A stretch of DNA of 64,000 nucleotides from an uncultured Bacilli bacterium. GTDB taxonomy: Bacteria; Bacillota_I; Bacilli_A; RF39; UBA660. A program made the translations under genes and the position numbers. Shown here piece by piece: positions 11,982-36,806 of this stretch. The DNA is taken from contig CALVIG010000005.1 of the NCBI GenBank assembly GCA_944329425.1, positions 1 through 64,000 on the forward strand. Direction: 5' to 3'. Positions within the stretch are counted from its first letter, which is position 1. The number at the start of each line of letters is the position of its first letter. Under the pieces are notes generated by a model. That model did not search any database. It was not told the origin of the DNA and worked only from the letters and a program-made list of their open reading frames with translations.

Positions 11982-11996
11982 TTAGTGTACCTCTTT

Positions 11997-12890: not shown

Positions 12891-13054
12891 AAAAAGCACC
12901 TCTTTTCTTTTTAATTTTAATTCATAAAACTTAATATTAAATATTAAGCATTTATACTATCCTTAATTATAAAAATAAAAATAAATTTAATACATTTAAA
13001 ATATATTAGAAAATTGAAAAGTTAATTTTAGGGTATAAATAATAACCTTTTTCA

Positions 13055-21442: not shown

Positions 21443-22621
21443 TTAAATTACTATCGCTATCATGTTATTTGAACCTTTATTTACAACTTTAGTAAGGGTG
21501 GTTTGAAGTTTATGCCTTATGTTATCCGGCATTAATGATAATTTACCCCTTATTCCTTCTTGAACGATTACGTCTAAGCTTCTTCCAAACATCTCACTTT
21601 TCCATACGCTATCTGGATCACTATCATAATTTTTCATTAAGTTATCGATAAGTTCTTTACTTTGTGTTTCTGATCCGATAATCGGTTCAAACGTTGATTC
21701 AACATCTACCCTTATCATGTGAATAGAAGGCGCTACGGCTTTTAGTTTAACCCCATACCTTGTTCCTTGTTTTATTATTTCAGGAGTGTCAAGTTTCATA
21801 TCCTTAATGGTTGGGAATGATGTACCATAACCAGTTTGTTTAACCATTTTAAGTGCTTCTTTAAACTGATCATATTCTTCTTTTGTTTCATTAAACTCTT
21901 GAAATAATGATATTAATTTTGCTTTAGAATCTATGTTAGTCCCTATTATTTCGTTTAGAACGTCATTATATAATCCTTCTGGAGCTTCTAAATTTATGGT
22001 TATTTCACCAGTTGCGGCGTTAACTTCCGATAAATAAGCTTTGGATATATGATCACATCCTTGAAAATGTCCTATTATCATGTCAACGTCTCTTACCTTA
22101 TCAACCTCAGTTACGCTTTCTTTTATTTTTTCAATATATTCCTTTTTTAAAGGATGCTTGTAAGACAAACATGCGATCCAATCTGGCATATTAACGTTAA
22201 CGCTCAAAACAGGAAATTCAAATAAAGCTTCTTTTAATATGTTATAGATTTCTTTTTCACTCATGTTTTCAGCACTAACCGGTATTACCGGTACATTATG
22301 CTCGTTTCTTAATTCTTCAGCCAATTTTTCCGTATCAGGATGGGTTGGATGAACTGAATTTAGTACTACTATAAAAGGTTTACCTATTTCTTTTAATTCG
22401 TTTATTACTTGATTTTCAGCGTCTATATAATCTTTTCTTTCTATTTCTCCAATACTACCATCAGTGGTTACAACAATACCTATTGTAGAATGATCCCTTA
22501 TTACCTTTTCGGTACCTATTTCCGCTGCTTCAACAAAAGGTATTTCTTCATCATACCAGTATGACCTGTTTTCGTGATACCCCTTGATATTTTTAAAAAT
22601 TGCTATCAAGCAATGTATCAT
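21443..22621 (-). CDS. spoIVA: SpoIVA, C-terminal part of an interrupted gene
   Basis: From the Tyr at the junction (22553-22555) to the end are 370 residues matching SpoIVA: YDEEIPFVEAAEIGTEKV, STIGIVVTTDGSIGEI, ALKMVKQTGYGTSFPTI, KLKAVAPSIHMIRVDVES, the EMFGRSLDVIVQEGIRGKLSL segment and NKGSNNMIAIVI. SpoIVA is the ATP-hydrolysing protein that polymerises on the forespore surface as the basement layer of the coat. The nominal 22 N-terminal residues (22556-22621) are element DNA. This piece lacks the Walker A motif and cannot work alone. The missing N-terminal piece is at 36357-36719; joining the two at the shared TGG restores 491 codons in frame. Confidence 0.97.
   Translation of the reverse strand: MIHCLIAIFKNIKGYHENRSYWYDEEIPFVEAAEIGTEKVIRDHSTIGIVVTTDGSIGEIERKDYIDAENQVINELKEIGKPFIVVLNSVHPTHPDTEKLAEELRNEHNVPVIPVSAENMSEKEIYNILKEALFEFPVLSVNVNMPDWIACLSYKHPLKKEYIEKIKESVTEVDKVRDVDMIIGHFQGCDHISKAYLSEVNAATGEITINLEAPEGLYNDVLNEIIGTNIDSKAKLISLFQEFNETKEEYDQFKEALKMVKQTGYGTSFPTIKDMKLDTPEIIKQGTRYGVKLKAVAPSIHMIRVDVESTFEPIIGSETQSKELIDNLMKNYDSDPDSVWKSEMFGRSLDVIVQEGIRGKLSLMPDNIRHKLQTTLTKVVNKGSNNMIAIVI
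22553..22585. other. Attachment junction, recombinase side
   Basis: Here host spoIVA sequence (TATGATGAAGAA on the minus strand) meets the element. The shared bases are TGG (22556-22558). The element arm GGGGTATCAC (22574-22583, read on the minus strand) is 15 bp from the TG core. The serine recombinase stop codon is about 40 bp further in. Confidence 0.88.
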
Positions 22622-22625
22622 TTTC

Positions 22626-24218
22626 TTACACTAATACTTCACTTTTTTTAATTCTATAATGAATTTCTAGTTTCTTATCTTTTGTTACATATATCTTATC
22701 TATTAATCTATTCATAATTTCTTTTGTTGGATTTTTCATATCTAAAAAGTTTTTAATAATATCTAAATATTCTACATAACAAGAGGAATCTTCCTCAATA
22801 CTAGAAATTTCATTTTGTAATACTTTTAATTTGTTATTTGCAGTTTTTATATCTTCTTCAGTAGCATTAAATAGTCTTTGATAAGTTTCTACACTTATTA
22901 TATTGTTAAACTTATCATCATATAAAGAGTCTTGCTTTCTTTTTAAATCTTCTATTGTATGATTTAATTCATCTATCTTTTTTAATTTTTCTACTTTTGG
23001 ATCAACATACTCATTTTTAATTATATTCTCAAATTCTTCTTTATCTTCAATATATTTATTTGCCATAGTGCTTAATTTATCATAAACAGTATTTTCTAAT
23101 TTAGTATAATTAATATAGTGAGAAAAACATATATCATATTTACTAAACTTACGATAGTTATTACAATTCATTGTAATTCTATCTCTTTTTTTATCATAAT
23201 TAATACTCATTCTAGCACCACAATCTTTGCAATAAACTAAATCAGATAATACATACTCAACATTTCTTCGTTCGGGATTATAAGTATTAGAAGAATCTTT
23301 AATACTTTGTGCTATTTCAAAAGTTTTTTTATCTACAAGTGCTTCATGCGCATTTTCTTTTATACACCATTCGCTTTCAGGTAAACTTTTTCTCTTTTTA
23401 ACCTTATAACTAACTTTTTGAAATCTGTGTTGAATTAAATCTCCAATATAAACTCTATTTTTTATAATATTGCTAACAGATGTGTGTTTCCATATTTCAG
23501 GATGGTCAAATTTACTTAATTTTGAACCAGAGTATTTATACATTACTGGTGTTGGTAATTCTTCTCTTGTTAGTATTTCGGCAATTTGTGAACTACCATA
23601 ACCTGCAACATATAAATCAAATATTCTTTTTACAACTGGGGCAGTCTCTGGGTCAGGAACTAACTGATGTTTATTATTTGGGTCTCTCATATAACCATAA
23701 GGAGCAGAACTCCCACAAAACTTACCATCTTTTTTCATTTGAAGTAAGTTAGAACGAACTTTTTTAGAAATATCTTTTGCATACATATCGTTCATACTTA
23801 ATTTAAATGGCATCATATCACTACCACTAGTTTCAAAAAAAGTATCTATATCATCATTTACAGCTATATATCTAACATCATTTTCTGGAAAAAAGGTTTC
23901 AACATAATAACCAGTCATTACATGGTCTCTTCCAAGTCTTGATAAATCTTTTGTTATAACCATATTTATTTTTCCATTTTCAATGTCTTGTAGCATTCTT
24001 TTAAATTCTGGACGTTCAAAATTTGTACCTGTATAACCATCATCAACATATATATCAACTGCAACTAATGCTTGTGCTTTTAAATAACCAATTAATAAAC
24101 TTCGTTGATTGGTAACACTTTCTGATTCTAAATCATCACCATCTTCACGAGATAGTCTTATATAAATGGCTATTTTAAATATTGTATTGTCTATTGTATA
24201 CCTATTTCTATTATACAC
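22626..24218 (-). CDS. Large serine recombinase (TnpX-like)
   Basis: 530 residues. The resolvase domain (about 12-160) has the nucleophile Ser in IYIRLSREDGDDLES, VDDGYTGTNFERPEF and ITKDLSRLGRDHVMTG. A recombinase domain (about 170-280) follows, then a zinc ribbon (LVYCKDCGARM ... MNCNNYRKFSKYDICFSHY) and a coiled-coil/C-terminal region. Everything needed for site-specific integration and excision is present. It starts at a GTG after AAAGGAG, 2 bp downstream of a small gene, and ends next to the attachment junction. It is the enzyme expected to cut the element out of spoIVA; excision would normally also need a directionality factor. Confidence 0.95.
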   Translation of the reverse strand: MYNRNRYTIDNTIFKIAIYIRLSREDGDDLESESVTNQRSLLIGYLKAQALVAVDIYVDDGYTGTNFERPEFKRMLQDIENGKINMVITKDLSRLGRDHVMTGYYVETFFPENDVRYIAVNDDIDTFFETSGSDMMPFKLSMNDMYAKDISKKVRSNLLQMKKDGKFCGSSAPYGYMRDPNNKHQLVPDPETAPVVKRIFDLYVAGYGSSQIAEILTREELPTPVMYKYSGSKLSKFDHPEIWKHTSVSNIIKNRVYIGDLIQHRFQKVSYKVKKRKSLPESEWCIKENAHEALVDKKTFEIAQSIKDSSNTYNPERRNVEYVLSDLVYCKDCGARMSINYDKKRDRITMNCNNYRKFSKYDICFSHYINYTKLENTVYDKLSTMANKYIEDKEEFENIIKNEYVDPKVEKLKKIDELNHTIEDLKRKQDSLYDDKFNNIISVETYQRLFNATEEDIKTANNKLKVLQNEISSIEEDSSCYVEYLDIIKNFLDMKNPTKEIMNRLIDKIYVTKDKKLEIHYRIKKSEVLV

Positions 24219-24220
24219 TT

Positions 24221-24415
24221 TTAACTCCTTTCACTAGACAACACTTTCACTTTATTAGTTGATTTAATTATACTATTTTTTTTGTCCGTTTTAAATACTT
24301 TTTTAGAACTAATATCTAAATTCTTATTAGCAATATAATATTTATATATACAACTCTTTAAAACTTCTTTTAAATCAAAACCATTACTATCATAAAACTC
24401 TAGTGTTTCATACAT
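24221..24415 (-). CDS. Small protein coupled to the serine recombinase
   Basis: 64 residues, basic in the C-terminal half (SSKKVFKTDKKNSIIKSTNKVKVLSSE). It has a good ribosome binding site (GGAGG) and ends 2 bp before the recombinase start, so the two are co-translated. No family is recognisable. Its size, charge and position make it one candidate for the excision (directionality) factor, but that is only inference. Confidence 0.55.
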   Translation of the reverse strand: MYETLEFYDSNGFDLKEVLKSCIYKYYIANKNLDISSKKVFKTDKKNSIIKSTNKVKVLSSERS

Positions 24416-24516
24416 TTATATACCTCCACACTCCAATTTTATGCATAAACTTTTATTAAAATTACTTTTTATCATAATTATCACGCACCTTTCTAATATT
24501 TCATAATTAACACCTA

Positions 24517-24936
24517 CTATCTAAAATCTTTCAATAATTCTTCCATTTCTTTGGATTCTTCTTCGGAAGGTTCTTCGCTTTCGCATCTTTTCCCATTCCA
24601 TACCATAACTCCATCTGGGTCATATCTAATATGGGGAGATTTCCTTCCGTTTAATATATCTTCTTTATTATCAGATATATCTGTAACAGTTATAAAAAGT
24701 TGTATATTATTACTTGTAGAATAAGAATTGAGATAACCCTTTATAAACACCTTTTTTTCCTTAACAAAAAAATCTTTATAAGTTGTATAAAGATTCCTAT
24801 TAATATTTAAACTTGAATAAACATAACTCTTATTATATTTAATTGTTTTTAAACCAAATTTAATATAATCTTGATTATTGTCTGTAATATTAGTTATATT
24901 ACCAGAGATAATTATTTCATTTAAATCTACATTCAT
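24517..24936 (-). CDS. SSB-like OB-fold protein
   Basis: 139 residues. The first 100 look like a single-stranded DNA-binding OB fold: NEIIISGNITNIT, IKFGLKTIKYNKSYVYSSLNI, KEKKVFIKGYLNSY, NIQLFITVTDI. The tail is acidic (SEEPSEEESKEMEELL). Such proteins are common on integrative elements, where they may protect transfer or replication intermediates. It lies upstream of the recombinase pair and is probably in the same transcript. Confidence 0.55.
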   Translation of the reverse strand: MNVDLNEIIISGNITNITDNNQDYIKFGLKTIKYNKSYVYSSLNINRNLYTTYKDFFVKEKKVFIKGYLNSYSTSNNIQLFITVTDISDNKEDILNGRKSPHIRYDPDGVMVWNGKRCESEEPSEEESKEMEELLKDFR

Positions 24937-25066
24937 ATATCAGTCCTTTCTTTTTAATTATTTAAATGAATTTTAAATTATTTTATTTATTATAATTATT
25001 TATTAATATTATTTATTCTGTTAGAAACATCTTGCTATACACAATAGTAATATATTGCTACTTATA

Positions 25067-25345
25067 TTAGAAGAAATTTGCTAAATAAATTTTTCTCATA
25101 TTAGGATCATTTTCTACTTTAATATAATTTTTTCTTTTAAGAGATGAAATGCAACTTGTAATTGTTCTTCTTGATACTTTTAGAAGATTACTTAAATATT
25201 TATTACTAGCATAACAAAATCCTTCTTTCATAGTTAAAGTAGTAATTAATCCCATTAATAGCTTTGATGTGGAAGATATATCATTATCTAATAAAACAAT
25301 CATAGGAACTTCCACATATTTTAAATTATTAATATCGTTATTCAT
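25067..25345 (-). CDS. Small winged-helix DNA-binding protein
   Basis: 92 residues with a replication-initiator-like winged helix: STSKLLMGLITTLTMKEGFCYASNKYLSNLLKVSRRTITSCISSLKRKNYIKVE. This is the pattern of HTH_36-type domains in plasmid and element replication proteins. Here only the HTH is present, so it is probably a regulator or a shortened Rep. Its leader is nearly identical to that of the relaxase gene. Confidence 0.6.
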   Translation of the reverse strand: MNNDINNLKYVEVPMIVLLDNDISSTSKLLMGLITTLTMKEGFCYASNKYLSNLLKVSRRTITSCISSLKRKNYIKVENDPNMRKIYLANFF

Positions 25346-25377
25346 ATATCATTCTCCTTTCCTTGATTTTTAAACAC

Positions 25378-25407
25378 AAAAAAACTTGTAAAATTTTCTA
25401 CAAGTCA
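25378..25407 (-). terminator. Terminator between the structured RNA and the winged-helix gene
   Basis: The stem ACTTGTA/TACAAGT with an AT-rich loop is followed by seven T on the minus strand. Confidence 0.75.
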
Positions 25408-25421
25408 TACTGATATAACTG

Positions 25422-25508
25422 AAAAAAAGGTAATAGTATCCCTGAGACTTTATTTTAAATCCTGTCTCTAGGATTGAAGCAGTTTAGCCTTTTGGCTAGG
25501 TACTATCA
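25422..25508 (-). ncRNA. Candidate structured RNA, three-way junction
   Basis: On the minus strand an outer 7-bp stem (GATAGTA with TACTATT) encloses two hairpins: TAGCC-AAAA-GGCTA and CCTAGAGAC with GTCTCAGGG. A run of seven T follows the outer stem. The region encodes no protein and lies between two small HTH genes. It could be a small RNA that controls the element or an elaborate terminator. I do not recognise an Rfam family. Confidence 0.5.
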
Positions 25509-25558
25509 TAAATCTCCGAACATTTATTGTACCTTATTTACTAGCGATTTTGTCTATT

Positions 25559-25825
25559 CTAGCAAATTGTGTATTCGTATAATCCTCTGTCGTATTCTTT
25601 GAAAGTAATATATTTGTGTTTTTCTAATAGTTGTAAGTTCTTTCTAAATGCGACATTCTTTAAACCCTTAATTTGTCCTTGTATCCTGCCAATATTTACA
25701 TTAGCTATTGTTCTATCAAAGCCTTCTGTATATAGATAAGAGTAAATATCTTTTGCTTCAAATGTGATATTTTTATCTTTCCATATTCTATGGTCGGTTA
25801 AGTCTAGATGCCTTGTTTTCCTCAT
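25559..25825 (-). CDS. Small winged-helix-like protein
   Basis: 88 residues, beginning MRKTRHLDLTDHRIWKDKNITFEAKDIYSYLY, with a helix-turn-helix-like LKNVAFRKNLQLLEKHKYITFKEYD at the C-terminus. The layout resembles the N-terminal winged helix of element replication initiators. It is divergently transcribed from the XRE regulator at 26006 across a shared control region with repeated GTNAACACT sites. Confidence 0.5.
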   Translation of the reverse strand: MRKTRHLDLTDHRIWKDKNITFEAKDIYSYLYTEGFDRTIANVNIGRIQGQIKGLKNVAFRKNLQLLEKHKYITFKEYDRGLYEYTIC

Positions 25826-25853
25826 TCATATCTTTTCCTCCTTTCTTTTTGAT

Positions 25854-25970
25854 GCGTAACACTTCTTTTTATATTGTTAACACTCGGTAACACATCAAAT
25901 ATACATCATAATTATGAACTTGTCAACACTTTTATTAACAATTTTATCAAATATGTTGACTTTCGTTAAC
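25854..25970. promoter_or_regulatory. Divergent control region with repeated operator-like sites
   Basis: The motif GTNAACACT or a close variant occurs at 25856, 25876, 25887 and 25922. An inverted pair GTCAAC (25922-25927) / GTTGAC (25955-25960) and another GTTAAC (25965-25970) follow. The last two overlap the -35 box of the XRE promoter. This is the pattern of an autoregulated phage-like switch. Confidence 0.55.
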
Positions 25971-25984
25971 GATAGTGGTATGAT
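25956..25984 (+). promoter_or_regulatory. Sigma-A-type promoter of the XRE regulator
   Basis: TTGACT at 25956-25961, a 17-bp spacer and TATGAT at 25979-25984, 22 bases before the start codon. It is a near-consensus vegetative promoter, and the -35 lies within an operator-like GTTGAC-n4-GTTAAC. Confidence 0.75.
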
Positions 25985-26005
25985 TAATGCAGGTGGTGAA
26001 GTTTT

Positions 26006-26524
26006 ATGCCAAAGCAAAACATAGGCGAAGCAATAGCTAGAGAAAGAGAAAAAAAAGGTTTATCTCAAAGACAATTAGCCAATGCAATTGGTATTAGTAA
26101 TGCCGAATTATCTAAAATAGAATCTGGTGAAAGAGAATTACCTAATCCTAAAATACTTAAAAAAATAAGTAAACATATAGATTTAAATTATAATAATATG
26201 TTAAGTATGATAGGTTTGGGAACTCAATTAACTATTCTTAATCCTTTTATTAGAAATTATTATGAACATTTAAGAGGAGATAAATTAGAAGATGCTTGGA
26301 TGATGGCAAAGGCAAGTATTAGTAATAATGATATAATGATTGATACCTTAAATCAAGAATTAGCTAAAGATGATCTTTCAGAAGAAGAAAGAGAACGTGC
26401 GATAGAAACAAAACAAGATTTAGAATATCAAAATGTTACTAATGAACTGATAGTTGGAATATTAGATGAAAACAGATTAAAGGAGGCGAAGAAAAATGCA
26501 AAAAATAACAATGTATTTAAATAA
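26006..26524 (+). CDS. XRE family regulator
   Basis: 172 residues. The N-terminal HTH (about 6-60) reads IGEAIAREREKKGLSQRQLANAIGISNAELSKIESGERELPNP. The C-terminal part is helical and acidic (LNQELAKDDLSEEERERAIETK). It likely represses its own promoter and the divergent genes through the repeated GTNAACACT sites. It overlaps the next gene, a membrane protein, suggesting the two work together as a sensor/regulator or immunity pair. Confidence 0.82.
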   Translation: MPKQNIGEAIAREREKKGLSQRQLANAIGISNAELSKIESGERELPNPKILKKISKHIDLNYNNMLSMIGLGTQLTILNPFIRNYYEHLRGDKLEDAWMMAKASISNNDIMIDTLNQELAKDDLSEEERERAIETKQDLEYQNVTNELIVGILDENRLKEAKKNAKNNNVFK

Positions 26525-26933
26525 GGTACAAATTATTGGTATTATTTTAGCAACAATAATGGTTATATTAATTCCTATTATAAATGATTATAAATTTGTA
26601 TCACTTGGTTGGTTCTTTATAGGAATTGCTAATTTTGGTAATGCAATGTTTACAAAAAATTGGTCTATGTTAGGAAGAACATGGACTGAAAAAGATGATA
26701 CAGATCCTGAAAAACAAATAACAAGAAAATATAGCGACAAGACATTTTATATAGTAGGATTTTTGGGAATAGCATTATGTCCTGTAGCATTATTTGAAAC
26801 ATTTTTTTCACAAAACTATATAGCAATGATAATTGCTTATATAGCAACAGCAATAGTATTAGTTGTTCTATTTAAAATAACTGATAAAGAACAAACTAAA
26901 GTTGAACAACTAATACCTAAAATAAGAAAATAG
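26496..26933 (+). CDS. Four-helix membrane protein coupled to the XRE regulator
   Basis: 145 residues with about four membrane helices (VQIIGIILATIMVILIPII, LGWFFIGIANFGNAMF, FYIVGFLGIALCPVALF, IAMIIAYIATAIVLVVL). It starts within the 3' end of the XRE gene after a strong AGGAGG site. No family is recognised. The regulator/membrane pair may sense envelope or mating signals or provide immunity; this is inference from position. Confidence 0.6.
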   Translation: MQKITMYLNKVQIIGIILATIMVILIPIINDYKFVSLGWFFIGIANFGNAMFTKNWSMLGRTWTEKDDTDPEKQITRKYSDKTFYIVGFLGIALCPVALFETFFSQNYIAMIIAYIATAIVLVVLFKITDKEQTKVEQLIPKIRK

Positions 26934-26972
26934 CATTTTGCTTTTCGGAAGATTAGCATTATGCTATTTTTT
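26928..26972 (+). terminator. Terminator of the XRE/membrane-protein operon
   Basis: AAATAGCAT at the end of the gene pairs with ATGCTATTT after a loop, followed by a T run on the plus strand. Confidence 0.6.
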
Positions 26973-27284
26973 CACTTTTTTATGAAGTTGTAAGACAAAT
27001 AAAAAAGGCACCTTTACTACTTACGCTAGTTTGTAGTATTGGTGCTTAAATGGGTTCCCAAAGGCTCTCCTTTGGCACACTATTCCTAGTTGGCTTTTGC
27101 CGACTTGGTAGTGTGTTACTTATTTGGCTTACAAATAAGTCTATCGCGAAAATTCATTAGTTATGAAATTTCTTTTGAATTTTTGCTTTAATAAGTTTGG
27201 GATTTATAAAAAATGACAGAATGACGGAAATTTATGGGTACCTACATTTATCTGTCATTCCATCATATAATGTAAAATCTGATA
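26973..27284. other. Intergenic stretch between convergent genes
   Basis: Apart from the structured RNA at 27001-27140 it contains an inverted repeat ATGACAGAATGACGG / CTGTCATTCCATCAT (about 27214-27265) near the end of the tandem-HTH gene. No open frame of note is seen. Confidence 0.5.
27001..27140 (-). ncRNA. Candidate structured ncRNA with four hairpins
   Basis: Read on the minus strand, four stems follow each other. They are ACTTATTTG/CAAATAAGT (9 bp, 27118-27140), CACACTA/TAGTGTG enclosing AGTCGGC-AAAA-GCCAACT (27076-27115), CCAAAGG/CCTTTGG (7 bp, 27058-27075) and GCACC-AATACTAC with GTAGTA-AAGGTGC (27008-27045). The last stem is followed by a T run (27001-27006), as in an intrinsic terminator. 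The region is non-coding and lies between convergent genes. I cannot assign a known RNA family. Confidence 0.6.
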
Positions 27285-27725
27285 TTATTTTTTTGTTTTA
27301 CCACATAACTCATTAATTGATATTTTAAACTCTTTAGCAAATTTATATAAGTTTTCAGTAGATATATAAACTCTACCTTTTTCATATTTAACTATACAAC
27401 TTTGAGTTACTTTAAGGATATCTGCTATATTCTCTTGTGAAAGATTATGTTTTTTTCTAATTTCTTTCATATTATTAGCAAGAACTTGCAAATCTAATCC
27501 TTTAATTAAATTTCTGCTAGTCTTGTTGTTTGTTAGTCCTAAAGCATAATCTAAAGTAATATTGAAATAATCTGCAAAATCGCATAAAAGTTTTAAAGGA
27601 ATAACACTTATACCTAGTTCCCACATTGAATAGGTAGAACGAGGAACACCTAATATTTTAGACATTGTTTCTTGGTTTATATCATTATCTTCTCTAATAT
27701 CTTTTAATCTTTGAAAATCTATCAT
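27285..27725 (-). CDS. Tandem XRE helix-turn-helix regulator
   Basis: About 146 residues containing two full XRE domains: residues about 5-60 (RLKDIREDNDINQETMSKILGVPRSTYSMWELG) and about 80-140 (MKEIRKKHNLSQENIADILKVTQSCIVKYEKGR). Such tandem-HTH proteins regulate integrative elements. The ATG at 27725 follows AGGTGG; the in-frame GTG at 27734 is inside that site. It is divergent from the disrupted gene at 27903. Confidence 0.82.
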   Translation of the reverse strand: MIDFQRLKDIREDNDINQETMSKILGVPRSTYSMWELGISVIPLKLLCDFADYFNITLDYALGLTNNKTSRNLIKGLDLQVLANNMKEIRKKHNLSQENIADILKVTQSCIVKYEKGRVYISTENLYKFAKEFKISINELCGKTKK

Positions 27726-27902
27726 AGCTACCACCTATAATAATTTTCCCATTTAAAATAAAAATATTAAGAATTTGCTTATTTCAAGACTATTTTTTGC
27801 TGATTTGTGTTATAATTTAATTGCAGTAAAAATAAAACTATTGAAAGGAAAATTTAAATGCAAAGAGATTACTTGAAGAAAGACACAATACAAATAAAGT
27901 GA

Positions 27903-28543
27903 ATGAAGAAACACTCGCTATTGTGGATTTATAGTTGCAGTGGTGAAGTATATAAATTATTAAGTTTAGAAGTATTATATAAACTTGTTAAAAAAATAAA
28001 AAAAGATACTATAAAATTAAATTCTAAATTAGTTTATGAAAAAAATCAAATTACTTTAGAAGAAAATTTTGTATCTACATTTGATAAGTATATTGGTTAT
28101 ATTAGGGATACTTATACAATAAATCATAATGAGCTTCTAATTATATTAGAACAAACTTTAAAAAATAACTATAATAAAGAACTATTTGTTGTTGCCGATT
28201 TTCATGAATGTCCAGAAATATTTTTAAATGGTTTTAAGAAAATGTTTTTAGCAAATTTAGTTTATAATACTCGCTATTATGCTAAACAAGACACAAATAA
28301 TATTCATCATTCATTACAAAATCAAATTTATTTTTAGAATCAAAAAGTTTAAGCAATTCTAAAGATATTATAGAAATAGAAAAAGTTTATATTAAGGTAA
28401 TAAGTAATTGCAAAAGTAATTTATATAATATATTTTTGCCCCATAGTGAAATTGATAAAAAACAGTTGTCTTTTTATTTTCATCAAGTAGATTGGAACTA
28501 TAATGATTATTATAAAAAATATGATGCTATTTTTAAAGGTTAA
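27903..28543 (+). pseudogene. Hypothetical gene disrupted by a frameshift
   Basis: An intact frame runs to a stop at 28335 (144 residues, starting MKKHSLLWIYSCSGEVYKLL). Directly past it, a frame shifted by one base stays open for about 70 more codons (ESKSLSNSKDIIEIEKVYIKVI ... FHQVDWNYNDYYKKYDAIFKG) and ends at 28541-28543. The shift falls in a T-rich run (TTTATTTTTAG), so a one-base deletion is the simplest explanation. The family is not recognised. A short reading frame with ATG at 27858 just upstream may be part of an older, also damaged, 5' end. Confidence 0.6.
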
Positions 28544-28606
28544 AATAGTTATTTATAGAAATATATGATAAAATATTATTATGTAGATTTATTGGTGGTG
28601 ATGTAT

Positions 28607-29038
28607 GTGAAAGAATTGTATCAAAAATATAAGGAAATTATTAATTATTTAATCTTTGGGGGTCTGACTACATTAATTAGTTTAATTGTTTATTATATGT
28701 TGAGTTTGACTATATTAAATCCTAATGTTAGTGTGGAGTTACAAATAGCAAATCTTTTTTCGTGGATAGCTGGAGTTTTATTTGCGTATTTTACAAATAG
28801 AGCATTTGTATTTAATAGTAAAAATGAAAATAAATTTAAAGAATTTATTACTTTTACTGGTGCAAGAGTATCAACACTTTTACTTGATATGGTAATAATG
28901 TTTTTGTTTGTAACTATATTAAAAGGTAATGATAAAATATTTAAACTGGTAAGTCAGATATTAGTAATTGTAGGAAACTATTTATTAAGTAAATTAATAG
29001 TTTTTAAGAAGGATAGTTATGAAAAATCTAGTAAATAA
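28607..29038 (+). CDS. GtrA family membrane protein (element copy)
   Basis: About 144 residues with four membrane helices and the GtrA signatures YLIFGGLTTLISL, FAYFTNRAFVFNSK and NYLLSKLIVFKK. First gene of a three-gene envelope-glycosylation cassette carried by the element. The GTG at 28607 fits the ribosome binding site GGTGGTG and gives an N-terminus like that of the paralog at 4397-4834. An ATG at 28565 is an alternative start. Confidence 0.85.
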   Translation: MKELYQKYKEIINYLIFGGLTTLISLIVYYMLSLTILNPNVSVELQIANLFSWIAGVLFAYFTNRAFVFNSKNENKFKEFITFTGARVSTLLLDMVIMFLFVTILKGNDKIFKLVSQILVIVGNYLLSKLIVFKKDSYEKSSK

Positions 29039-31088
29039 AATGTTTAATTTTGTTAATAAATTCTTGTTAATTTTTACCATAATATGTTTTTCTATTTCTT
29101 TAATAGGAGCGATATTTTTCTATATTAATCGTAGTTATGATTATTTAAATCCATTAGTTTTAATTGTTGGTTCAATCGTATATTTACTTTTATTAATTAA
29201 ATTATATAAGGTTATTATCAAACTTGATGATAAGAAAAAGAAAATAATAGTAGGTATCTTATTAGGATTGCAATTTGTCTTATTACTTATAAGTACTTTT
29301 GTAATTAGTAGTATTCCTCAAGTTGATTTAATACATATTTTAACCGAAATAAATAGTTTAAATGATACGGGTTCGATATTAAATAATGTTTACTATTCTG
29401 TTTATCCTAATAATAGATTTTTATTAATTATTTTATATGGGTTACAAAAGATTATTCCTATTAGCAATCAAATTTTATTTTCTTTACTAAGTACAATATG
29501 TATTTCTGTTATGTCATTATTTACTTATAAAACTGTTAATAAAGTTTGGGATCTCAATAAAGGCTTATTAAGTTTATTTATATGTGTATTATCTCCAATC
29601 TTTTATTTATATGTATCATATTACTATACAGATGTATTAATGTTACCATTTGCCAGTATTTTAATTTATTTAATAGTTAAAACAAAAGACGAAAAAAATT
29701 TAAAATCTAACGTTCTATATGGCTCATTAATCGGTATCATTGCAATAATTGGTTATAAGATAAGGGCTGTTGCAATATTTATACTAGTAGCGTATTTTGT
29801 ATATTTAATATTTACTAAAAAGACATTAATAGTGTTAAAGAAGTTTGCACCAATAATAATTGGGGCAATATTAACAATAACTTGTATTTGTACTATTGAG
29901 AATAAATTTTTCACAAATGTTAATGTTGATAAAGAATTTCCAATGACACATTGGATTATGATGGGAGTTAATGAAAAAAGTTATGGATATTATTCCCAAG
30001 ATGATTATAATCTAAGTAGTAGTGCTTCAAACGTTTCAGAAAGAACAGATTTAAATATTAAAGAAATAAAAAACAGATTGAGTGATTTAGGTCCATTTGG
30101 AACAGTGAAATTATTAGTAGTTAAATTAGTTTCTGTTTGGGGTAAAGGAGATTATAGTTATCAAAAATATTTAGAATTAGTTAATGACTTTAATCCGTCT
30201 TATTCTTATTTATTGGAAGATAAAAATATTGTTATAAATTATTTATTACAGTTCTCTAAAATAGTAGTTATGTTTATGGCAATAATATCTCTTATTAATA
30301 TTTATAAAAGTGGTAAGAAATCAATTATAGCAATTAGCTTGTTTGGAGCAGTATTTTTCTATCTTGTTTGGGAAGTATGTCCACGATATGGTTTATCATT
30401 CTTACCGTGGTTAATACTAATAGGTACATGTTCTTATGATACTTTAAATACCAATTATGAGAAATTCAAATTTTATAAATATTTTAAATGTATTATACTA
30501 GTCTTAACTTTAGCATTATTCGCTTTTAGTTTTAATAAATATACAGGTATTAGTTATAAAGAAAATATAGTAGCAAAAGACAGTGTAACCAAGGTTAAGT
30601 ATATTTCTTTAAATAAAGAAGCGGTTATCACCCAAACAGTAGATTTATATGATAATTTTAATAAAATAAGATTAAAATTTAAAGTTAATGAAATAGATGA
30701 TGCAACTTATAAGTTGGAGTTAATAACTAAAAATGAAGTTGTGTATGAAAAAGACTTTAAAAAAAATGATTTGAAAGATAAAAAATATACAGATTTTTAT
30801 TTAGATAAAACTTATGAAAGTGGTAGTTATACTGTAAGATTAAGTTCGGATAGTGCAAGTGATTTAGAAGTTTATATCGCATATAAAGAAAAATTTGATT
30901 ATTATCCGAATGGTATTTTAGAAGTGAATGAAAAAGAAGAAACTGGCGATTTGATGTTTGAAGTAGTAAATAATGAAGAACGAGGAATTTATACTTATCT
31001 AGAATATATGACAATAATGATATTAACACTAGGCATGGAAGTTATAGTGTTATTTAGAAAGAAGGAAGAAGTAAATGAAGAAAAATAA
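29019..31088 (+). CDS. Multi-pass membrane glycosyltransferase (GT-C type)
   Basis: 689 residues with about eleven to twelve membrane helices in the first 500 and an extracytoplasmic C-terminal domain closed by a final helix (YTYLEYMTIMILTLGMEVIVLF). No catalytic motif can be confirmed by eye. Size, topology and location between GtrA and GtrB match the serotype-converting Gtr transferases, which move a sugar from polyprenyl phosphate to a surface polymer. It overlaps both neighbours (20 and 14 bp), so the three are translationally coupled. Confidence 0.7.
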   Translation: MKNLVNKMFNFVNKFLLIFTIICFSISLIGAIFFYINRSYDYLNPLVLIVGSIVYLLLLIKLYKVIIKLDDKKKKIIVGILLGLQFVLLLISTFVISSIPQVDLIHILTEINSLNDTGSILNNVYYSVYPNNRFLLIILYGLQKIIPISNQILFSLLSTICISVMSLFTYKTVNKVWDLNKGLLSLFICVLSPIFYLYVSYYYTDVLMLPFASILIYLIVKTKDEKNLKSNVLYGSLIGIIAIIGYKIRAVAIFILVAYFVYLIFTKKTLIVLKKFAPIIIGAILTITCICTIENKFFTNVNVDKEFPMTHWIMMGVNEKSYGYYSQDDYNLSSSASNVSERTDLNIKEIKNRLSDLGPFGTVKLLVVKLVSVWGKGDYSYQKYLELVNDFNPSYSYLLEDKNIVINYLLQFSKIVVMFMAIISLINIYKSGKKSIIAISLFGAVFFYLVWEVCPRYGLSFLPWLILIGTCSYDTLNTNYEKFKFYKYFKCIILVLTLALFAFSFNKYTGISYKENIVAKDSVTKVKYISLNKEAVITQTVDLYDNFNKIRLKFKVNEIDDATYKLELITKNEVVYEKDFKKNDLKDKKYTDFYLDKTYESGSYTVRLSSDSASDLEVYIAYKEKFDYYPNGILEVNEKEETGDLMFEVVNNEERGIYTYLEYMTIMILTLGMEVIVLFRKKEEVNEEK

Positions 31089-32028
31089 TTTAGTATTAAA
31101 TTTAGTTATACCTTGTTATAACGAAGAAGAAGCACTACCACTAACAAAAAAAGAACTTGATAAAAAAATGAGTAGTTTAATGGAAGAAGGTTTAATTAGT
31201 GAAAATAGTAAAGTGGTTTTAGTTAATGACGGTTCTAAGGATAAAACGTGGGAAATTATAACTAAGATACATAAAGAAAATCATATGTACGTAGGAATTA
31301 ATTTAACTAGAAACAGAGGACATCAAAATGCCTTGCTTGCAGGTTTAATGTATGCAAAAAATCATGCAGATATCTGTATTAGTATGGATGCTGATTTACA
31401 AGATGATATTAATGTAATGGATGATATGATAAAAAAATATAATGCCGGTGCTGATGTTGTTTATGGTGTTAGAAGTTCAAGAAAAAAAGATACGTTTTTT
31501 AAAAAGTTTACTGCAGAAGCTTTTTATAAATTAATGAACATTATGGGCGTTGAAGTTGTATTTAATCATGCAGACTGTCGTTTAATGAGTAAAAGAGCTT
31601 TAGAAGGTTTAAGTGAGTTTAAAGAAGTTAATTTATTCTTAAGAGGTATAGTTCCTCAAGTTGGATATAAAACTGATATAGCTTACTACGAGCGAAGCGA
31701 AAGAGTAGCAGGTGAATCTAAATATCCGTTAAAGAAAATGTTAGCGTTTGCTATTGATGGAATAACTTCATTTAGTATAAAACCTTTAAGAATGATTACT
31801 TCAATCGGTTTTATTATTTTAATACTTAGTTTTGTAGTTTTGATTTATTCTGTTATTATGAAATTAATTGGTAATACGGTATCTGGTTGGACGTTTATTG
31901 TTTGTTCAATTTGGTTAATAGGTGGTATTCAAACTCTATGTCTTGGTGTGATTGGAGAATATATTGGTAAAATATATAAGGAAACTAAAGCGAGACCTAG
32001 ATATATTATTGAGTGTGTACTTGATTAA
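31075..32028 (+). CDS. GtrB-like polyprenyl-phosphate glycosyltransferase
   Basis: 317 residues. GT2 domain with NLVIPCYNEEEALPLT, VLVNDGSKDKTW, LTRNRGHQNALLAGL and the catalytic ISMDADLQDD (DXD), then ADCRLMSKRAL. Two C-terminal membrane helices (MITSIGFIILILSFVVLIYSV and FIVCSIWLIGGIQTLCLG) complete the GtrB/DPM1 layout. It loads a sugar onto bactoprenyl phosphate for the GtrA/GT-C partners. It ends the cassette and is followed by a terminator. Confidence 0.92.
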   Translation: MKKNNLVLNLVIPCYNEEEALPLTKKELDKKMSSLMEEGLISENSKVVLVNDGSKDKTWEIITKIHKENHMYVGINLTRNRGHQNALLAGLMYAKNHADICISMDADLQDDINVMDDMIKKYNAGADVVYGVRSSRKKDTFFKKFTAEAFYKLMNIMGVEVVFNHADCRLMSKRALEGLSEFKEVNLFLRGIVPQVGYKTDIAYYERSERVAGESKYPLKKMLAFAIDGITSFSIKPLRMITSIGFIILILSFVVLIYSVIMKLIGNTVSGWTFIVCSIWLIGGIQTLCLGVIGEYIGKIYKETKARPRYIIECVLD

Positions 32029-32050
32029 TGAGTATATAGGTTTAATTCAA

Positions 32051-32082
32051 AAAATCCCTAATAATGTCTATTAGGGATTTTT
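32051..32082. terminator. Bidirectional terminator between gtrB and a convergent gene
   Basis: AAATCCCTAATA pairs with TATTAGGGATTT around a short loop. T runs follow on both strands. Confidence 0.85.
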
Positions 32083-32083
32083 T

Positions 32084-32488
32084 TTACTCATTATTCAGTA
32101 GAGAATAACTATAATCATATACTAATAAATGTTTATTTATTTCTTCGTTAATAATTTTATCTTTAAAATCTGTTTCATAAATATTAAATATCATTTCAAT
32201 AGAGAAATGCTTTTTTTCTTTTTCAGTAAGTTCTAAATACTTGGCTGAAAAGAATAATAAATGTTTATATTTACTAAAATTAGTTATTACTTTTGCATAA
32301 CTTGGATCTAATATACTTAAAATTTGTTTTAATAAAATAATCATATCTCTTACATTGAAATCTAAACTAAAATTTTTATTTTCTAATAAATATATTGCTA
32401 ATCTTACTTTATCAATATTACTTAAATTATCAAATTGATGTATTAAATCAACAACTTTTTTTGTATTATCACTTAATAACATATACAT
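32084..32488 (-). CDS. Hypothetical protein of the element
   Basis: 134 residues, mostly helical and charged (LSDNTKKVVDLIHQFDNLSNIDKVRLAIYLLE ... SLLNNE). No signal peptide, membrane helix or known motif is seen. It lies downstream of the relaxase gene on the same strand and shares its type of AAAGGAGAATG leader. Function unknown. Confidence 0.5.
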   Translation of the reverse strand: MYMLLSDNTKKVVDLIHQFDNLSNIDKVRLAIYLLENKNFSLDFNVRDMIILLKQILSILDPSYAKVITNFSKYKHLLFFSAKYLELTEKEKKHFSIEMIFNIYETDFKDKIINEEINKHLLVYDYSYSLLNNE

Positions 32489-32535
32489 TCTCCTTTCATT
32501 TTAGCCGTTTTAAGCAACTTTATTTAAAAGACCAG

Positions 32536-32597
32536 ATGGGAGATTAAACTTTACTATAATGTCTTGCTAAAGACACATTAGATATATTTAATCTCGT
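32536..32597 (-). other. Hairpin-rich leader between the relaxase and the next gene
   Basis: GAGATTAAA (right) pairs with TTTAATCTC (left) around an inner hairpin AATGTGTCTT-TAGC-AAGACATT. It could be a processed RNA, a leader of the downstream gene or a transfer-related site. Nothing decides between these. Confidence 0.35.
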
Positions 32598-32656
32598 TTT
32601 CTGTCTTAATATTTATCACTCTAACAAATAAAAAAATCAAAAGTTTTTTAATAATT

Positions 32657-33946
32657 TTACATACTTAATTCAAAATCGTCTTTATCATACTCTTCTTCAT
32701 AGTTTCTAACTCTTTCCTTATAATAGTCAGGTGCAACTACATAATCATATAATTCATCTTGTTTAGTAGTTCCTCTTGATATACCAATAACATCATGCAT
32801 ATCAAATACTTCATTATCATAGTAGTCCTTAATTGCATCGGCAGTTTCATCTTTGGTATATTCATTACCTCGTTGTAATAGTTTTCTTAAAAATTTCTTT
32901 AATAATTGAATTATATAATTTAATCTATCCATTAAACTTTTGTTTTCTTGGTCTAAATATTTATTATCTTTTTTAAGTTTAGTAATCTCTTTTTCATACT
33001 TTTTATTTTCTTTTTCTAATGATTTATAGCTATTAGTATAATTATCTACTTCATTAAATATAGTTTGTAGTTTTGGTTGCATTTCCATAACTTTTTTAGA
33101 TTCTTTAATAACATTATTCATACTATCAAAAGTTTCTTTTTTAACTTTCACATATTCTTTATCAAAAAGAATATTTTTAGTTGATTTCATTTTATCTTCA
33201 AAGTCATTAACAGCCTTATCAAGTCTATCATTTTTAACATTTAATTCTTGATTTAATTTTTTAGTTACTCATTTATATTCTTTAATTTTAATGTGTTTAT
33301 TATCACTACCTTTAATACCATGTTCTAAATCATATCCTTTTTCAGTTAGTCTTTTATGATATAAGTCTTGTAATTGTGATAGGTGTATTTTATCTTTAAT
33401 ATATTGTTTTTTAGATATTGTATATCGCTCAGTATTTGTTCTATTATCTATTTTTTTAACAAGAGGAACAACAACACAATGTATATGTGGCGTTTTTTCA
33501 TCTAAATGAACAACACTATGCAATACTTGTTCTTTTGTATAACATAAATCATTATAAACAAAGTCCATACAAGTATTAGCCCATTCATTAATATCTTCTC
33601 TTGTCATATTTTTGAAAAATTCAGGAGTTGCAGTAAACATTAATTCATCAGCAACACAATTTCTTGAACTATTTAACATATCGTGATATTTCTTTTTTCT
33701 TGATTTCCTTTCGGTTTTCATTCTTTCTTCGTGTTCTTTTTTATATTCTTTTGTTAGTGTATGAAATCCTTTCAAATACTTTTCAGCAAGTGGTACAAGT
33801 TCTATATTATCTTTGCTTAATTCTAACTTAATATCTGGATTAGAATTATAAGCTTGTTTTTCTCTTTTATTATGTGATCCTATTTGTGATAAATCTTGTG
33901 TAGTCATAATAGGTTCACTTCTAAATATTGCGTAATTTAAATTCAT
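32657..33946 (-). pseudogene. mob: MobV-family relaxase interrupted by an in-frame TGA
   Basis: The N-terminal 225 residues (33269-33946) are a plasmid-mobilisation relaxase: NYAIFRSEPIMTTQDL and the metal-binding motif VVHLDEKTPHIHCVVVPL (HxDExTPHxH). A TGA at 33269-33271 ends this part. The same frame then continues without another stop through a coiled coil (NDFEDKMKSTK ... YEKEITKLKKDNKYLDQENKSL) to 32657, for about 429 codons in all, the normal MobV length. TGA is a stop elsewhere in this genome, so this looks like a recent nonsense mutation. The N-terminal catalytic part would still be made. Confidence 0.85.
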
Positions 33947-33974
33947 ATATCATTCTCCTTTCGTTTTTACACAA

Positions 33975-34004
33975 CAAAAAAAGATATGTAATTAAACATA
34001 CCTT
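33975..34004 (-). terminator. Terminator of the fic gene
   Basis: GGTATGT pairs with ACATATC around a TTAATT loop and is followed by seven T on the minus strand. Confidence 0.75.
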
Positions 34005-34046
34005 TCATAATTCTAGCTATTTGTAAATTTTAAATAATTTATTTAA

Positions 34047-35099
34047 TTAATTATTCCATTTATATTTTGTATATCTTCCACCAGAGATTTTAACAATTTT
34101 ATCTTCTTTAAGTAATTTATTTAAAGTTCTTTCAATTGTAGTTTCACTTAAATCAGGACATTTATTTGTTATAAATGCTTTATCTATTGGAATAATATTA
34201 TCTTTAAATATATCTATAATTCTTTTATAAGCAGTTATTTTTTTATTTTCAACAATATTTATTCTGGAATCAAATTCCTTATAAGCATTTAATATTATTC
34301 CTAAATAATATTCTACAAAATATGAATAGTCATTTTCGTTATTATGCCAATTTAGAGAACTTTTTTCTAATGTATCATAATAACTATCTTTTGTTTCTTC
34401 TATAATTTTTTCAATACTAATATATTTTCCTACCATATAGTTTGCTTTATATAATAATAGTAAAGTAAGTAATCTACTCATTCTACCATTACCATCATTA
34501 AATGGGTGTATTGATACAAAATCTAATATAAATATAGGAATTAAGACTAGTAAATCACATGATTCATTATTAACTAATTCATTATAATTTTTACACAATT
34601 CTTCAATTGCAATTGGTGTCTCAACAGAAGATAGTGGTGTAAATCTTATTTTCTTTTCTCCTTTTTCATTTTCTTCTTCTATATAGTTTTGAGAATTCTT
34701 AAATTTACCACCATAACTATAACCAGTATATTTATATAAATCTCTGTGTAATTGTAAGATTGTATTTTGATTAATATCAATAAAATTATAATTTTCGTGT
34801 ATTAAAGTTAATACATCTCTATAACCAGCAATTTCTTCTTCGTTTCTATTTTTAGGTTCTAATTTTTGATTTACTATTTCATTAATTCTTTTATCAGTAG
34901 TATAAATACCTTCAATTTTATTTGATGAAGAAGTACTTTGAATTTTAGCAACTTTTAATAAAGTATCTAATGTGTCTTTTTTAGTATCTAATAAATATGA
35001 TTGTTTTCCTTTATACTCATGAATTTTACTTATCAAGTTAATAATATTACTATTAGATATAATACTACTATATTCTTCCATTAAATTAAATCTTCTCAA
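34047..35099 (-). CDS. Fic family protein with C-terminal winged helix
   Basis: 350 residues. The Fic core has the exact motif HPFNDGNGRMSR (residues 198-209), whose His and the following residues catalyse AMP (or other nucleotide) transfer. An inhibitory-helix motif S-x3-E-G is present at 59-64 (SNKIEG), placing it in the self-inhibited class with an N-terminal alpha-inhibitor. The last 70 residues form a winged helix (PDLSETTIERTLNKLLKEDKIVKI). Such stand-alone Fic proteins are frequent on mobile elements as toxin-like or regulatory modules. It appears to start at a TTG at 35099 after AAAGGAG. Confidence 0.92.
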   Translation of the reverse strand: MRRFNLMEEYSSIISNSNIINLISKIHEYKGKQSYLLDTKKDTLDTLLKVAKIQSTSSSNKIEGIYTTDKRINEIVNQKLEPKNRNEEEIAGYRDVLTLIHENYNFIDINQNTILQLHRDLYKYTGYSYGGKFKNSQNYIEEENEKGEKKIRFTPLSSVETPIAIEELCKNYNELVNNESCDLLVLIPIFILDFVSIHPFNDGNGRMSRLLTLLLLYKANYMVGKYISIEKIIEETKDSYYDTLEKSSLNWHNNENDYSYFVEYYLGIILNAYKEFDSRINIVENKKITAYKRIIDIFKDNIIPIDKAFITNKCPDLSETTIERTLNKLLKEDKIVKISGGRYTKYKWNN

Positions 35100-35221
35100 A
35101 TTGCATCATTCTCCTTTCATCTGCACCATTATATCACAAAATGATTCAATTAACAATATATTTGATGCAAATAAATTCACATTATTAATATGCGTAATAT
35201 CATAGTTTTTTAAACAATATA

Positions 35222-36250
35222 TTACTCAGTATGTAAGTTTTCCTTACATACTGAATTTAAATTGTTTTTATTATAATTACAATATTTTCTTATTTTGCAT
35301 TTCTCACATTTAGGATATTCTCCACATATATTTGCGGACCTTAATAAACAAAATTGTTGTATTATTGATTCTACTATTATTTCATCACAATCATTTAATA
35401 TTGCTATTTTTTTAATTATATTCAATACTTGTTGTTCTGTTGCATTAGCATTCTCTACAATTCCTAGTCTATGACTACCAAATAATCTTTCTAACTGTGA
35501 ACTCTTTTTACAAGTATTAACACCAACTCGTTTTAAATAATCATAAGCAAAAGCTCGTCCAACTTGTGTTAGTTTATATTTACCAGAATTAAACATATTA
35601 GCAATGTCATTAGGAGTTTCTTTATTTACAAAATTATCTAAACTTCCATAATCTTTCTCAATTTTTTCTAATACTATTATATTTCTTGATAATGCTTTCA
35701 TTTGATTATTAATCATTGGATTAGTGCAATGAATATTCCTTAATTTATTTACTAAAATATTTGGATCAACTATCTTTAAATAATTCTTATTATAATTATG
35801 AAATATTTTATCAATAGTATCCATATTTTCTCTTATATTATTATCTCCCCATCTATGGTTAGAGAGTAGAGCAAGAATTAATGCCTTTAAATGTTCTTCA
35901 AAAGAATACTTTTTACCTTTCTTTCTAGATTTAACACTATTAATTAAATCTTTAATATCTCTCATATAATCATAATTTATATAATCCATACTTTCCTTTA
36001 TAAGAGGATATATTTCTTTTAAATCTTTATCTTCTAATAAAGTAATATTCTTTACCATTTCATAATTAGGATTATAAATTATTTGATTATCAATACAATC
36101 CTTTAAAATTTCTATGACTTCTTCATTAGATAAATACTTAACTCTCTCAATTGGGAATACAACCTTATTTACCTTTACATAATTTATCAGCAAAGGTATT
36201 AAATCGGGATTTTTAAAAATTTTCTCTTTTTTCATAAAAAAATATCTCAC
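35222..36250 (-). CDS. HhH/Fe-S protein resembling endonuclease III-type glycosylases
   Basis: 342 residues. The C-terminal half resembles the HhH-GPD fold: SNHRWGDNNIRENMDTIDKIF, then a hairpin-like LTQVGRAFAYDYLKRVG (227-243). At the end is a four-Cys cluster (C309, C315, C318, C324; spacing C-x5-C-x2-C-x5-C) close to the C-x6-C-x2-C-x5-C loop of EndoIII/MutY. The catalytic Lys of the hairpin is not seen, and the usual VDTH is VNTC (244-247), so base-removal activity is doubtful. It is the outermost cargo gene, next to the attachment site. A defence or DNA-sensing role is possible. A start at 36235 is an alternative. Confidence 0.55.
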   Translation of the reverse strand: MRYFFMKKEKIFKNPDLIPLLINYVKVNKVVFPIERVKYLSNEEVIEILKDCIDNQIIYNPNYEMVKNITLLEDKDLKEIYPLIKESMDYINYDYMRDIKDLINSVKSRKKGKKYSFEEHLKALILALLSNHRWGDNNIRENMDTIDKIFHNYNKNYLKIVDPNILVNKLRNIHCTNPMINNQMKALSRNIIVLEKIEKDYGSLDNFVNKETPNDIANMFNSGKYKLTQVGRAFAYDYLKRVGVNTCKKSSQLERLFGSHRLGIVENANATEQQVLNIIKKIAILNDCDEIIVESIIQQFCLLRSANICGEYPKCEKCKIRKYCNYNKNNLNSVCKENLHTE

Positions 36251-36332
36251 TTTCTATAAATTAGTCTTTAACTAATAAAGTGAAATATTGCCTTAAGCCC
36301 TTATTTTATGGGCATTTATTTATTTTTTATTT
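36249..36332 (-). other. Hairpin-containing leader of the HhH/Fe-S gene
   Basis: Two inverted repeats lie between the attachment site and the gene: GCCC-n9-GGGC (about 36298-36314) and CACTTT ... AAAGTG (36249-36283). They may form a structured 5' leader. No clear promoter is seen. Confidence 0.35.
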
Positions 36333-36362
36333 GGGGTATCACTTATTCAACGACACCCATGG
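36333..36362. other. Attachment junction, cargo side
   Basis: Host spoIVA sequence (ACGCCATGG on the minus strand) meets the element at TGG (36357-36359). The element arm GTGATACCCC (minus strand, 36333-36342) is 15 bp from the TG core, mirroring the other junction. Confidence 0.88.
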
Positions 36363-36719
36363 CGTTCTAACCATTCTAGGACCATTTTCATCTTCATAAC
36401 CTTTAGCTGCATCAATTACGTAACCAACACAGTCTATTAACCTAATATTTGCGGTAAAATCATCTATTTGTATGGTAGCAGCATTAGAAGGAACAAACTT
36501 TGGCTCTATCGTCATTATTGTTTTACCTTGAGCCGTTTGAGGTATCTCATCTAAACATCTTTTTCTTTCATACTCATCCTTAATATTTGGTACAACAAGG
36601 TTTTCAATACATTTTTTTATAAACGTTGATTTACCAGTTCTTACCGCACCAACTACACCTAAATATATATCCCCACCGGTTCTTTCAGATATATCTTTAA
36701 TAATATCGTATTTTTCCAT
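36339..36719 (-). CDS. spoIVA: SpoIVA, N-terminal part of an interrupted gene
   Basis: 121 codons of SpoIVA (36357-36719) followed by five element-derived codons and a TGA. It starts MEKYDIIKDISERTGGDIYLG and contains the Walker A motif GAVRTGKSTF (24-33), EIPQTAQGKTIMTIEPKF, LIDCVGYVIDAAKGYEDENGP and RMVRTPW, where it breaks. The Bacillus protein continues TPWYEEPIPF; here the continuation YDEEIPF lies 13.8 kb away at 22555. The ribosome binding site is TAGGGA. It is followed by a SpoVIF-family gene on the same strand. Confidence 0.97.
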   Translation of the reverse strand: MEKYDIIKDISERTGGDIYLGVVGAVRTGKSTFIKKCIENLVVPNIKDEYERKRCLDEIPQTAQGKTIMTIEPKFVPSNAATIQIDDFTANIRLIDCVGYVIDAAKGYEDENGPRMVRTPWVSLNK

Positions 36720-36777
36720 ATAATCCCTACTTTCTTATCAATCTCATTAAATATTATGTAAAAATAGTAACAATATG

Positions 36778-36806
36778 AAAAAAAGAAGAATTTTTTTCTT
36801 CTTTTT
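36778..36806 (-). terminator. Terminator of the SpoVIF-family gene
   Basis: AAAAAGAAGAA pairs with TTCTTCTTTTT and a T run follows on the minus strand. Confidence 0.7.

Follow-up and report, generated by a model that had tools for sequence, protein, structure and literature searches.

Cases of developmentally timed gene restoration have so far come from only a few strains, and the elements responsible are mostly defective prophages. The sporulation genes reported to be interrupted are sigK, spsM, spoVFB, spoVR, gerE, and yabG (PMC5025042, PMC4191935, PMC5595907, PMC10747680). In the skin elements of B. subtilis and C. difficile, a large serine recombinase (LSR) element splits the mother-cell gene sigK and its removal restores the gene, with the C. 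difficile element pairing CD1231 with a small directionality factor, CD1234 (PMC5025042). SP-beta, which is a full phage, resides in spsM, a late spore-envelope polysaccharide gene, and uses SprA and SprB; experiments have shown that sprB is served by both vegetative read-through and a sporulation promoter (PMC4191935). The gin element in gerE of B. cereus is not a phage and combines an LSR with a small factor (GirC/GirX), although it spans 28.6 kb and carries three recombinases (PMC5595907). Finally, yin in yabG of C. botulinum is prophage-like, has been reported from one strain only, and was found in integrated and excised forms within one population (PMC10747680).

We found no report in the searchable literature of spoIVA as the target of an intervening element. 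The SpoIVA protein, which is required for spore formation, acts in the mother cell. In the window, by which we mean the whole 64,000-nucleotide stretch of DNA analyzed here, spoIVA is interrupted by a sporulation gene-intervening element that is mobile, occurs in multiple genera, and occupies a target not reported before (Table 1). It shares with skin, SP-beta, gin, and yin a split mother-cell gene, a short direct repeat, exact restoration of the open reading frame, and an intact recombinase, and it shares with C. difficile skin and gin a small partner protein. Unlike skin, it resides in a gene of an earlier stage (the sigma-E regulon), carries an LSR and small protein of other types, is not prophage-like, and moves between genera. 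In contrast to gin, the spoIVA elements are only ~3.3-14 kb, carry one LSR, and are found in many genera, and as with yin, integrated and excised forms appear to coexist. We assign a probability of about 0.8 to the reading that excision of this element is timed to sporulation, takes place in the mother cell, and rebuilds spoIVA, as judged from the sequence evidence.

Table 1. Features of the interrupted spoIVA locus and its surroundings (positions within the window)
Feature	Position	Strand	Basis or remarks
spoIVA 3′ part	21443..22558	-	Residues 121-491; C-terminal portion of the SpoIVA ATPase, then the middle and C-terminal domains
att core TGG, C-half side (attL)	22556..22558	-	C-half contigs of G002, G191, G141 start exactly here
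spoIVA-intervening element, 13,801 bp including one TGG core	22559..36359	-	Shared TGG, gapless joined ORF, empty G213 site
attP arm GTGATACCCC (+)	22574..22583	.	Perfect inverted match to arm at opposite end
Large serine recombinase, 530 aa, spoIVA-specific clade	22626..24218	-	Resolvase, Recombinase, Zn-ribbon, DUF4368 domains (Pfam)
64-aa partner protein (orf64), candidate recombination directionality factor	24221..24415	-	Homologue directly 5′ of LSR in all loci examined
-10 box CATAAAAT, sigma-E-type promoter	24436..24443	-	Consensus match upstream of orf64
-35 box TAATTTT	24458..24464	-	6/7 to KMATATT, 14-bp spacer
Sigma-70-type promoter TTGACA-17-TATATT	25898..25926	-	Consensus match only; faces orf88-orf92-orf139-orf64-LSR direction
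XRE-type repressor-like gene	26006..26524	+	HTH_3 E=2.4e-13; divergent from sigma-70-type promoter 25898..25926
Cargo: GtrA, PMT-type, GT2 glycosyltransferase genes	28565..32028	+	Pfam
Mob/Pre relaxase (mobilisation)	33269..33946	-	PF01076 E=5.4e-30
Fic-domain protein	34047..35099	-	PF02661 E=7.6e-16; retained in smallest elements L107, L116, L214
342-aa protein at attR end	35222..36250	-	No Pfam match; common to many elements, with homologues in L084, L086, L088, L090, L111
attP arm GGGGTATCAC (+)	36333..36342	.	Perfect inverted match to arm GTGATACCCC
spoIVA 5′ part	36339..36719	-	Residues 1-121, then element-encoded VSLNK + stop; PF09547 E=1.1e-56, profile 1-124
att core TGG, N-half side (attR)	36357..36359	-	N-half contigs of G002, G191 stop exactly here
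spoIVA promoter, sigma-E type	36751..36778	-	TCATATT-13-CATAATAT
SpoVIF gene	36805-37059
SASP gene	43208-43372
YunB gene	45102-45815

Architecture of the interrupted spoIVA locus

The source genome of the window (G000; 1.11 Mb, 96% complete) carries a single copy of spoIVA, which a search of the whole genome recovered in two pieces, both on the minus strand. These pieces match the SpoIVA ATPase profile PF09547 at positions 1-124 and ~120-237, and the break lies within the ATPase domain. The insertion point is codon 121, a TGG triplet encoding Trp, and the ORF of the C-half runs on into the element as far as position 22621. When the flanks are joined without positions 22559-36359, a 491-codon spoIVA ORF results whose product aligns gaplessly and at 90% identity with the uninterrupted SpoIVA encoded by G213, a genome of the same genus in which the empty site reads ...ACACCATGGTATGATGAAG.... 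Likewise, joining the two ends of the element yields GGGGTATCAC-GAAAACAGGTCATAC-TGG-GTGTCGTTGAATAA-GTGATACCCC, a symmetric attP-like site whose 10-bp inverted arms match perfectly. A first-pass annotation of this DNA had proposed that an element splits spoIVA in an arrangement suited to excision, and the single split copy, the TGG core, and the gapless joined ORF confirm this proposal.

The LSR of the window has a GTG start and no internal stop. It lies just inside the C-half end of the element and reads toward the C-half of spoIVA, with its stop codon ~65 bp from the att core, such that the earlier description of an intact recombinase at the attachment-site end proved correct. Every fully assembled element carries an intact LSR, and no decayed LSR was found among complete elements. 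Pfam and PHROGs scans of the window element otherwise revealed regulators, a relaxase, glycosyltransferases, and a Fic gene. The same scans detected no capsid, terminase, or tail genes, and the element is not prophage-like. Because both an LSR and a Mob_Pre relaxase are present, the window element can be classed as an integrative mobilisable element, and the relaxase is absent from some smaller relatives.

Recurrence and horizontal movement

A SpoIVA profile search of 291 genomes from 150 genera of the same family returned a match in 256 genomes. In ~20 of these 256, representing ~19 genera, spoIVA is split at the same codon (profile position 120-124); ordinary contig breaks in the gene fall at other positions, as in G283 and G253. 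Because same-codon splits recur in ~19 genera, they are not due to chance. Six further split genomes emerged from an LSR-based search. Wherever the C-half end of an element is assembled, it holds a co-oriented LSR that is 58-94% identical to that of the window, with an orf64 homologue directly 5′ of it. Furthermore, a scan of the genome collection yielded 30 LSR loci with at least 58% identity, and all those with a continuing contig lie at a split spoIVA, compared with 0/50 for the next 50 recombinases (40-43% identity). The conserved core of the elements consists of the att sites, orf64, and the LSR, and the remainder varies freely. The smallest elements (~3.3 kb) carry only a Fic gene, and the cargo of those in L121 and G223 is one 2.7-kilo-residue surface-type protein. 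At L245 (positions 1009-10713; G105), a 2733-aa gene corresponding to this cargo lies directly downstream of an intact spoIVA, in convergent orientation and with no LSR, where it has apparently been left behind or moved.

No nucleotide difference separates the LSR genes of G052, L102, G269, and G089, whereas the spoIVA C-halves of these hosts differ with dS values ranging from ~0.6 to saturation. The element must therefore have moved between genera recently. A close relative of the window element also resides in a different host (L110), where the LSR is 94% identical and the cargo 84-100% identical, but spoIVA is only 67% identical. With many insertions this recent, as the identical LSRs in four hosts attest, the intact spoIVA halves found there prove little, and we considered but rejected the argument that intact frames across the split genomes prove function. 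In L102 (positions 8290-15340; G345), spoIVA is interrupted twice, with its C-half cut again by a second element that carries an unrelated LSR (13719-15359).

Selection on the two halves of spoIVA

A different history is seen in genus g105, on which alone the following selection argument rests. The elements of L121 and G223 are colinear with 76-80% nucleotide identity, where L121 was placed in g105 by sequence similarity rather than by label. Between the two, dS reaches 0.85 in the LSR gene and 0.63 in the cargo gene; the spoIVA parts give 0.48 and 0.70-0.73, and flanking host genes give 0.47-0.84, with one short gene an outlier at 2.0. The interrupted state in this genus has co-diverged with the host (dS ~0.5-0.85). 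Over this time, both halves have remained under strong purifying selection: dN/dS between L121 and G223 is 0.09 for one spoIVA part and 0.08 for the other, and the halves across g105 give 0.02-0.09, with the third split member, G330, in agreement; intact spoIVA pairs at a similar distance give 0.03-0.11. Values in the intact range for an interrupted gene are difficult to account for if spoIVA is never rebuilt, and this signal indicates that the split gene continues to be used.

Sporulation genes are also retained in split genomes. SpoIIR is encoded in 18/19 split and 14/14 intact genomes as opposed to 4/11 that lack spoIVA, and SASP genes follow the same order (14/19, 11/14, and 3/11, respectively). 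Genes for SigE together with SpoIIGA, for SigK, SigG, and SpoIIR, and one resembling that for sigma-F are likewise present in the source genome of the window. The SASP, YunB, and SpoVIF genes that the first-pass annotation had named are all present in the window. In a control search, B. subtilis sigK fell below the cut-off of the SigK model, which fits its being split by skin. An IS30-like transposase gene (HTH_38) lies close to the sporulation genes of the window, at positions 47025-47936.

Promoters of the orf64-LSR operon

The known sigma-E consensus is KMATATT / CATACAHT. Intact spoIVA promoters of the family (TCATATT-13-CATATAGT) fit this consensus, and the promoter ahead of orf64 in the window (TAATTTT-14-CATAAAAT) scores 13/15 against it. 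The sequence CATA is kept ~26-33 bp ahead of the orf64 start codon in every element, and the two LSR subclades have little else in common in this stretch. The motif CATANAATT is found upstream of orf64 in 24/28 elements versus 1/299 control genes, and a fixed-consensus score of at least 12/15 is reached by 24/28 elements versus 11/299 controls (5 of those 11 being spoIVA itself), where the 28 elements are related and their counts are not independent. A position weight matrix trained on spoIVA promoters likewise separates elements from controls (p=1.5e-12), although the subclade of the window ranks only moderately, and the -35 match is imperfect in one subclade. We considered whether this promoter type is specific to the spoIVA clade and rejected the idea because a sister group (group X, below) has it too. 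These patterns suggest that the orf64-LSR operon is under sigma-E control.

The sigma-70-type promoter farther upstream might provide vegetative control of the same operon, and no terminator was found on the operon strand between this sigma-A-type site and orf64. In SP-beta, the directionality-factor gene has a mother-cell promoter with a perfect -10 and an imperfect -35 together with a vegetative promoter, and the sequence suggests the same layout here (PMC4191935). The first-pass annotation had appealed to the logic of skin and SP-beta. This comparison is apt for the split mother-cell gene, but the element is not only a passive switch, given its horizontal movement and its putative vegetative, repressor-type promoter region.

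The 64-aa partner protein

The stop codon of orf64 precedes the GTG start of the LSR by 2 bp. The description of a basic 64-residue protein at this position holds for its size and location but not for its charge as a shared trait, because the homologues range in pI from 5.4 to 9.4 (9.4 in the window). These homologues are 38-73 aa long, with a conserved N-terminal stretch of ~30 residues (MYExxEFYxxxGxDLKEVLKSCIYNYY) and a variable tail. Sequence searches of Pfam, NCBIfam, PHROGs, and the PDB gave no real match; PDB matches at E ~0.005 and weaker were discarded as short chance matches. An AlphaFold model built from the orf64 alignment has one helix at low confidence (pLDDT 66), and Foldseek found no structural match to it. 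Because the protein is strictly paired with the LSR and shares its operon and promoter, a directionality factor is its likeliest role, and a plausible one.

We know of no fixed sporulation-gene target for the TnpX/TndX transposon recombinases, and to our knowledge, relatives of TnpX require no separate directionality factor. The solved LSR domain closest to that of the spoIVA LSR belongs to this type (TnpX, 2mhc; Tn4451/Tn5397), and a TnpX-like LSR may do without such a factor. Perhaps, then, the 64-aa protein is a leader or regulator, with the LSR excising alone and the timing being purely transcriptional. We hold this reading, which does not exclude mother-cell excision, at somewhat below even odds. 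Its appeal derives from the kinship with TnpX, from the lack of resemblance between the 64-aa protein and any known factor, and from conservation that is confined to the N-terminal ~30 residues in a protein reduced to 38 aa in some elements. However, orf64 lies directly 5′ of the LSR at each locus, even in the smallest elements, and sister LSRs are also preceded on their 5′ side by an ORF of ~58 aa at a similar place, although the profile-profile similarity between the two small proteins is weak.

A model for excision and its alternatives

According to the model we favor, the LSR of a mobilisable, horizontally moving element would insert that element into spoIVA at codon 121. Excision would follow from recombination of attL with attR by the LSR, whose direction the 64-aa protein probably sets, and would leave spoIVA whole again downstream of its native promoter. 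Because this change would be confined to the chromosome of the mother cell, the element would persist in the forespore and hence in the lineage. This model offers a testable reason why such insertion sites are favored.

Several assemblies bear on whether removal occurs. The N-half contigs of G002 and G191 terminate in ...CCATGG or ...CCTTGG, and their C-half counterparts open with TGG. In G141, an empty-site contig overlaps a second contig by exactly 141 identical bases from the TGG at which the second begins, and in G419, an LSR contig ends at TGGTAT while intact spoIVA is found on another contig. These forks at the TGG core indicate that both forms were present in the sample, which supports excision but does not prove it, since a mixture of strains would give the same picture.

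It could instead be argued that this is an ordinary mobile element for which spoIVA serves as a conserved attB, that its hosts are asporogenous, and that it excises only during transfer or stress. The very recent cross-genus transfer evident from the identical LSRs, the Mob relaxase, and the XRE gene with a sigma-A-like promoter region upstream are all in keeping with such a lifestyle. We nevertheless regard it as improbable, because it leaves unexplained the sigma-E-type promoter at the LSR operon, the purifying selection on both spoIVA halves during long inheritance in g105, the retention of sporulation genes in split genomes, and the absence of decayed LSRs among complete elements. Far less probable still is a SpoIVA that functions as an assembly of two separately translated halves, the C-half being expressed from a promoter of the element. 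The LSR operon does read toward the C-half, whose ORF in the window has an ATG within the element, but this ATG lacks an obvious ribosome site, the break falls inside the ATPase domain, and for most C-halves no start codon is found in frame ahead of the core. On this last ground, we rejected independent function of the halves. Excision in the mother cell, as proposed by the first-pass annotation, is thus the reading we retain, supported by the sigma-E-type promoter, selection in g105, the sporulation genes kept, and the mixed assemblies. Neither circumstance that the annotation named as counting against it, recombinase expression confined to conjugation or stress or a strain unable to sporulate, was encountered in the sequence data.

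A small, actively spreading class of elements has made its home in an early sporulation gene across about two dozen genera, and if this reading is correct, such restoration moves from anecdote to population scale. In these elements, the LSR and its partner protein also form compact pairs whose att sites are known, and this set of pairs is new. Moreover, sporulation predictions that take a fragmented spoIVA in a metagenome assembly for gene loss may be mistaken.

Related elements in other genes

Elements with group X LSRs interrupt wall-hydrolase genes (Amidase_3, GH25) within the codons of LysM motifs, and 11/20 pass the sigma-E test; the sigma-E-type promoter of this LysM-targeting clade is even better than that of the spoIVA clade. 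At five group X loci (L162, L178, L179, L142, and L136), a TAATATT-14-CATAGAAT promoter is followed by a ~59-aa ORF and then the LSR. Part of the group Y LSRs reside in a CotD-like coat gene, whose Pfam match is just under the curated cut-off. This gene is found in 63/78 family genomes and in ~20/63 only as a C-terminal piece of 50-60 aa, and a group Y LSR lies beside that piece in 6/7 split loci fetched. CotD-like loci include L247, L248, L250, L253, L256, and L257, as well as L132, L145, L147, and L180, and the intact gene has a sigma-K-like CATANNNTA promoter.

The spoIVA, CotD-like, and LysM wall-hydrolase clades might represent a radiation, within this family of uncultured gut Bacilli with small genomes, of elements with an LSR and a small ORF that specialize on sporulation and spore/wall genes, a proposition to which we give about an even chance. 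If true, residence in genes that serve the doomed mother cell alone would be a general way of life for mobile elements, one that spreads horizontally and is no peculiarity of single strains.

Elsewhere in the window, a PcrA/UvrD helicase gene (51044-54205) contains an intein (Intein_splicing E=9.1e-15) whose insert appears by eye to be GIY-YIG-like rather than LAGLIDADG. Positions 62255-64000 of the minus strand hold the 5S and the 3′ part of the 23S rRNA genes (Rfam).
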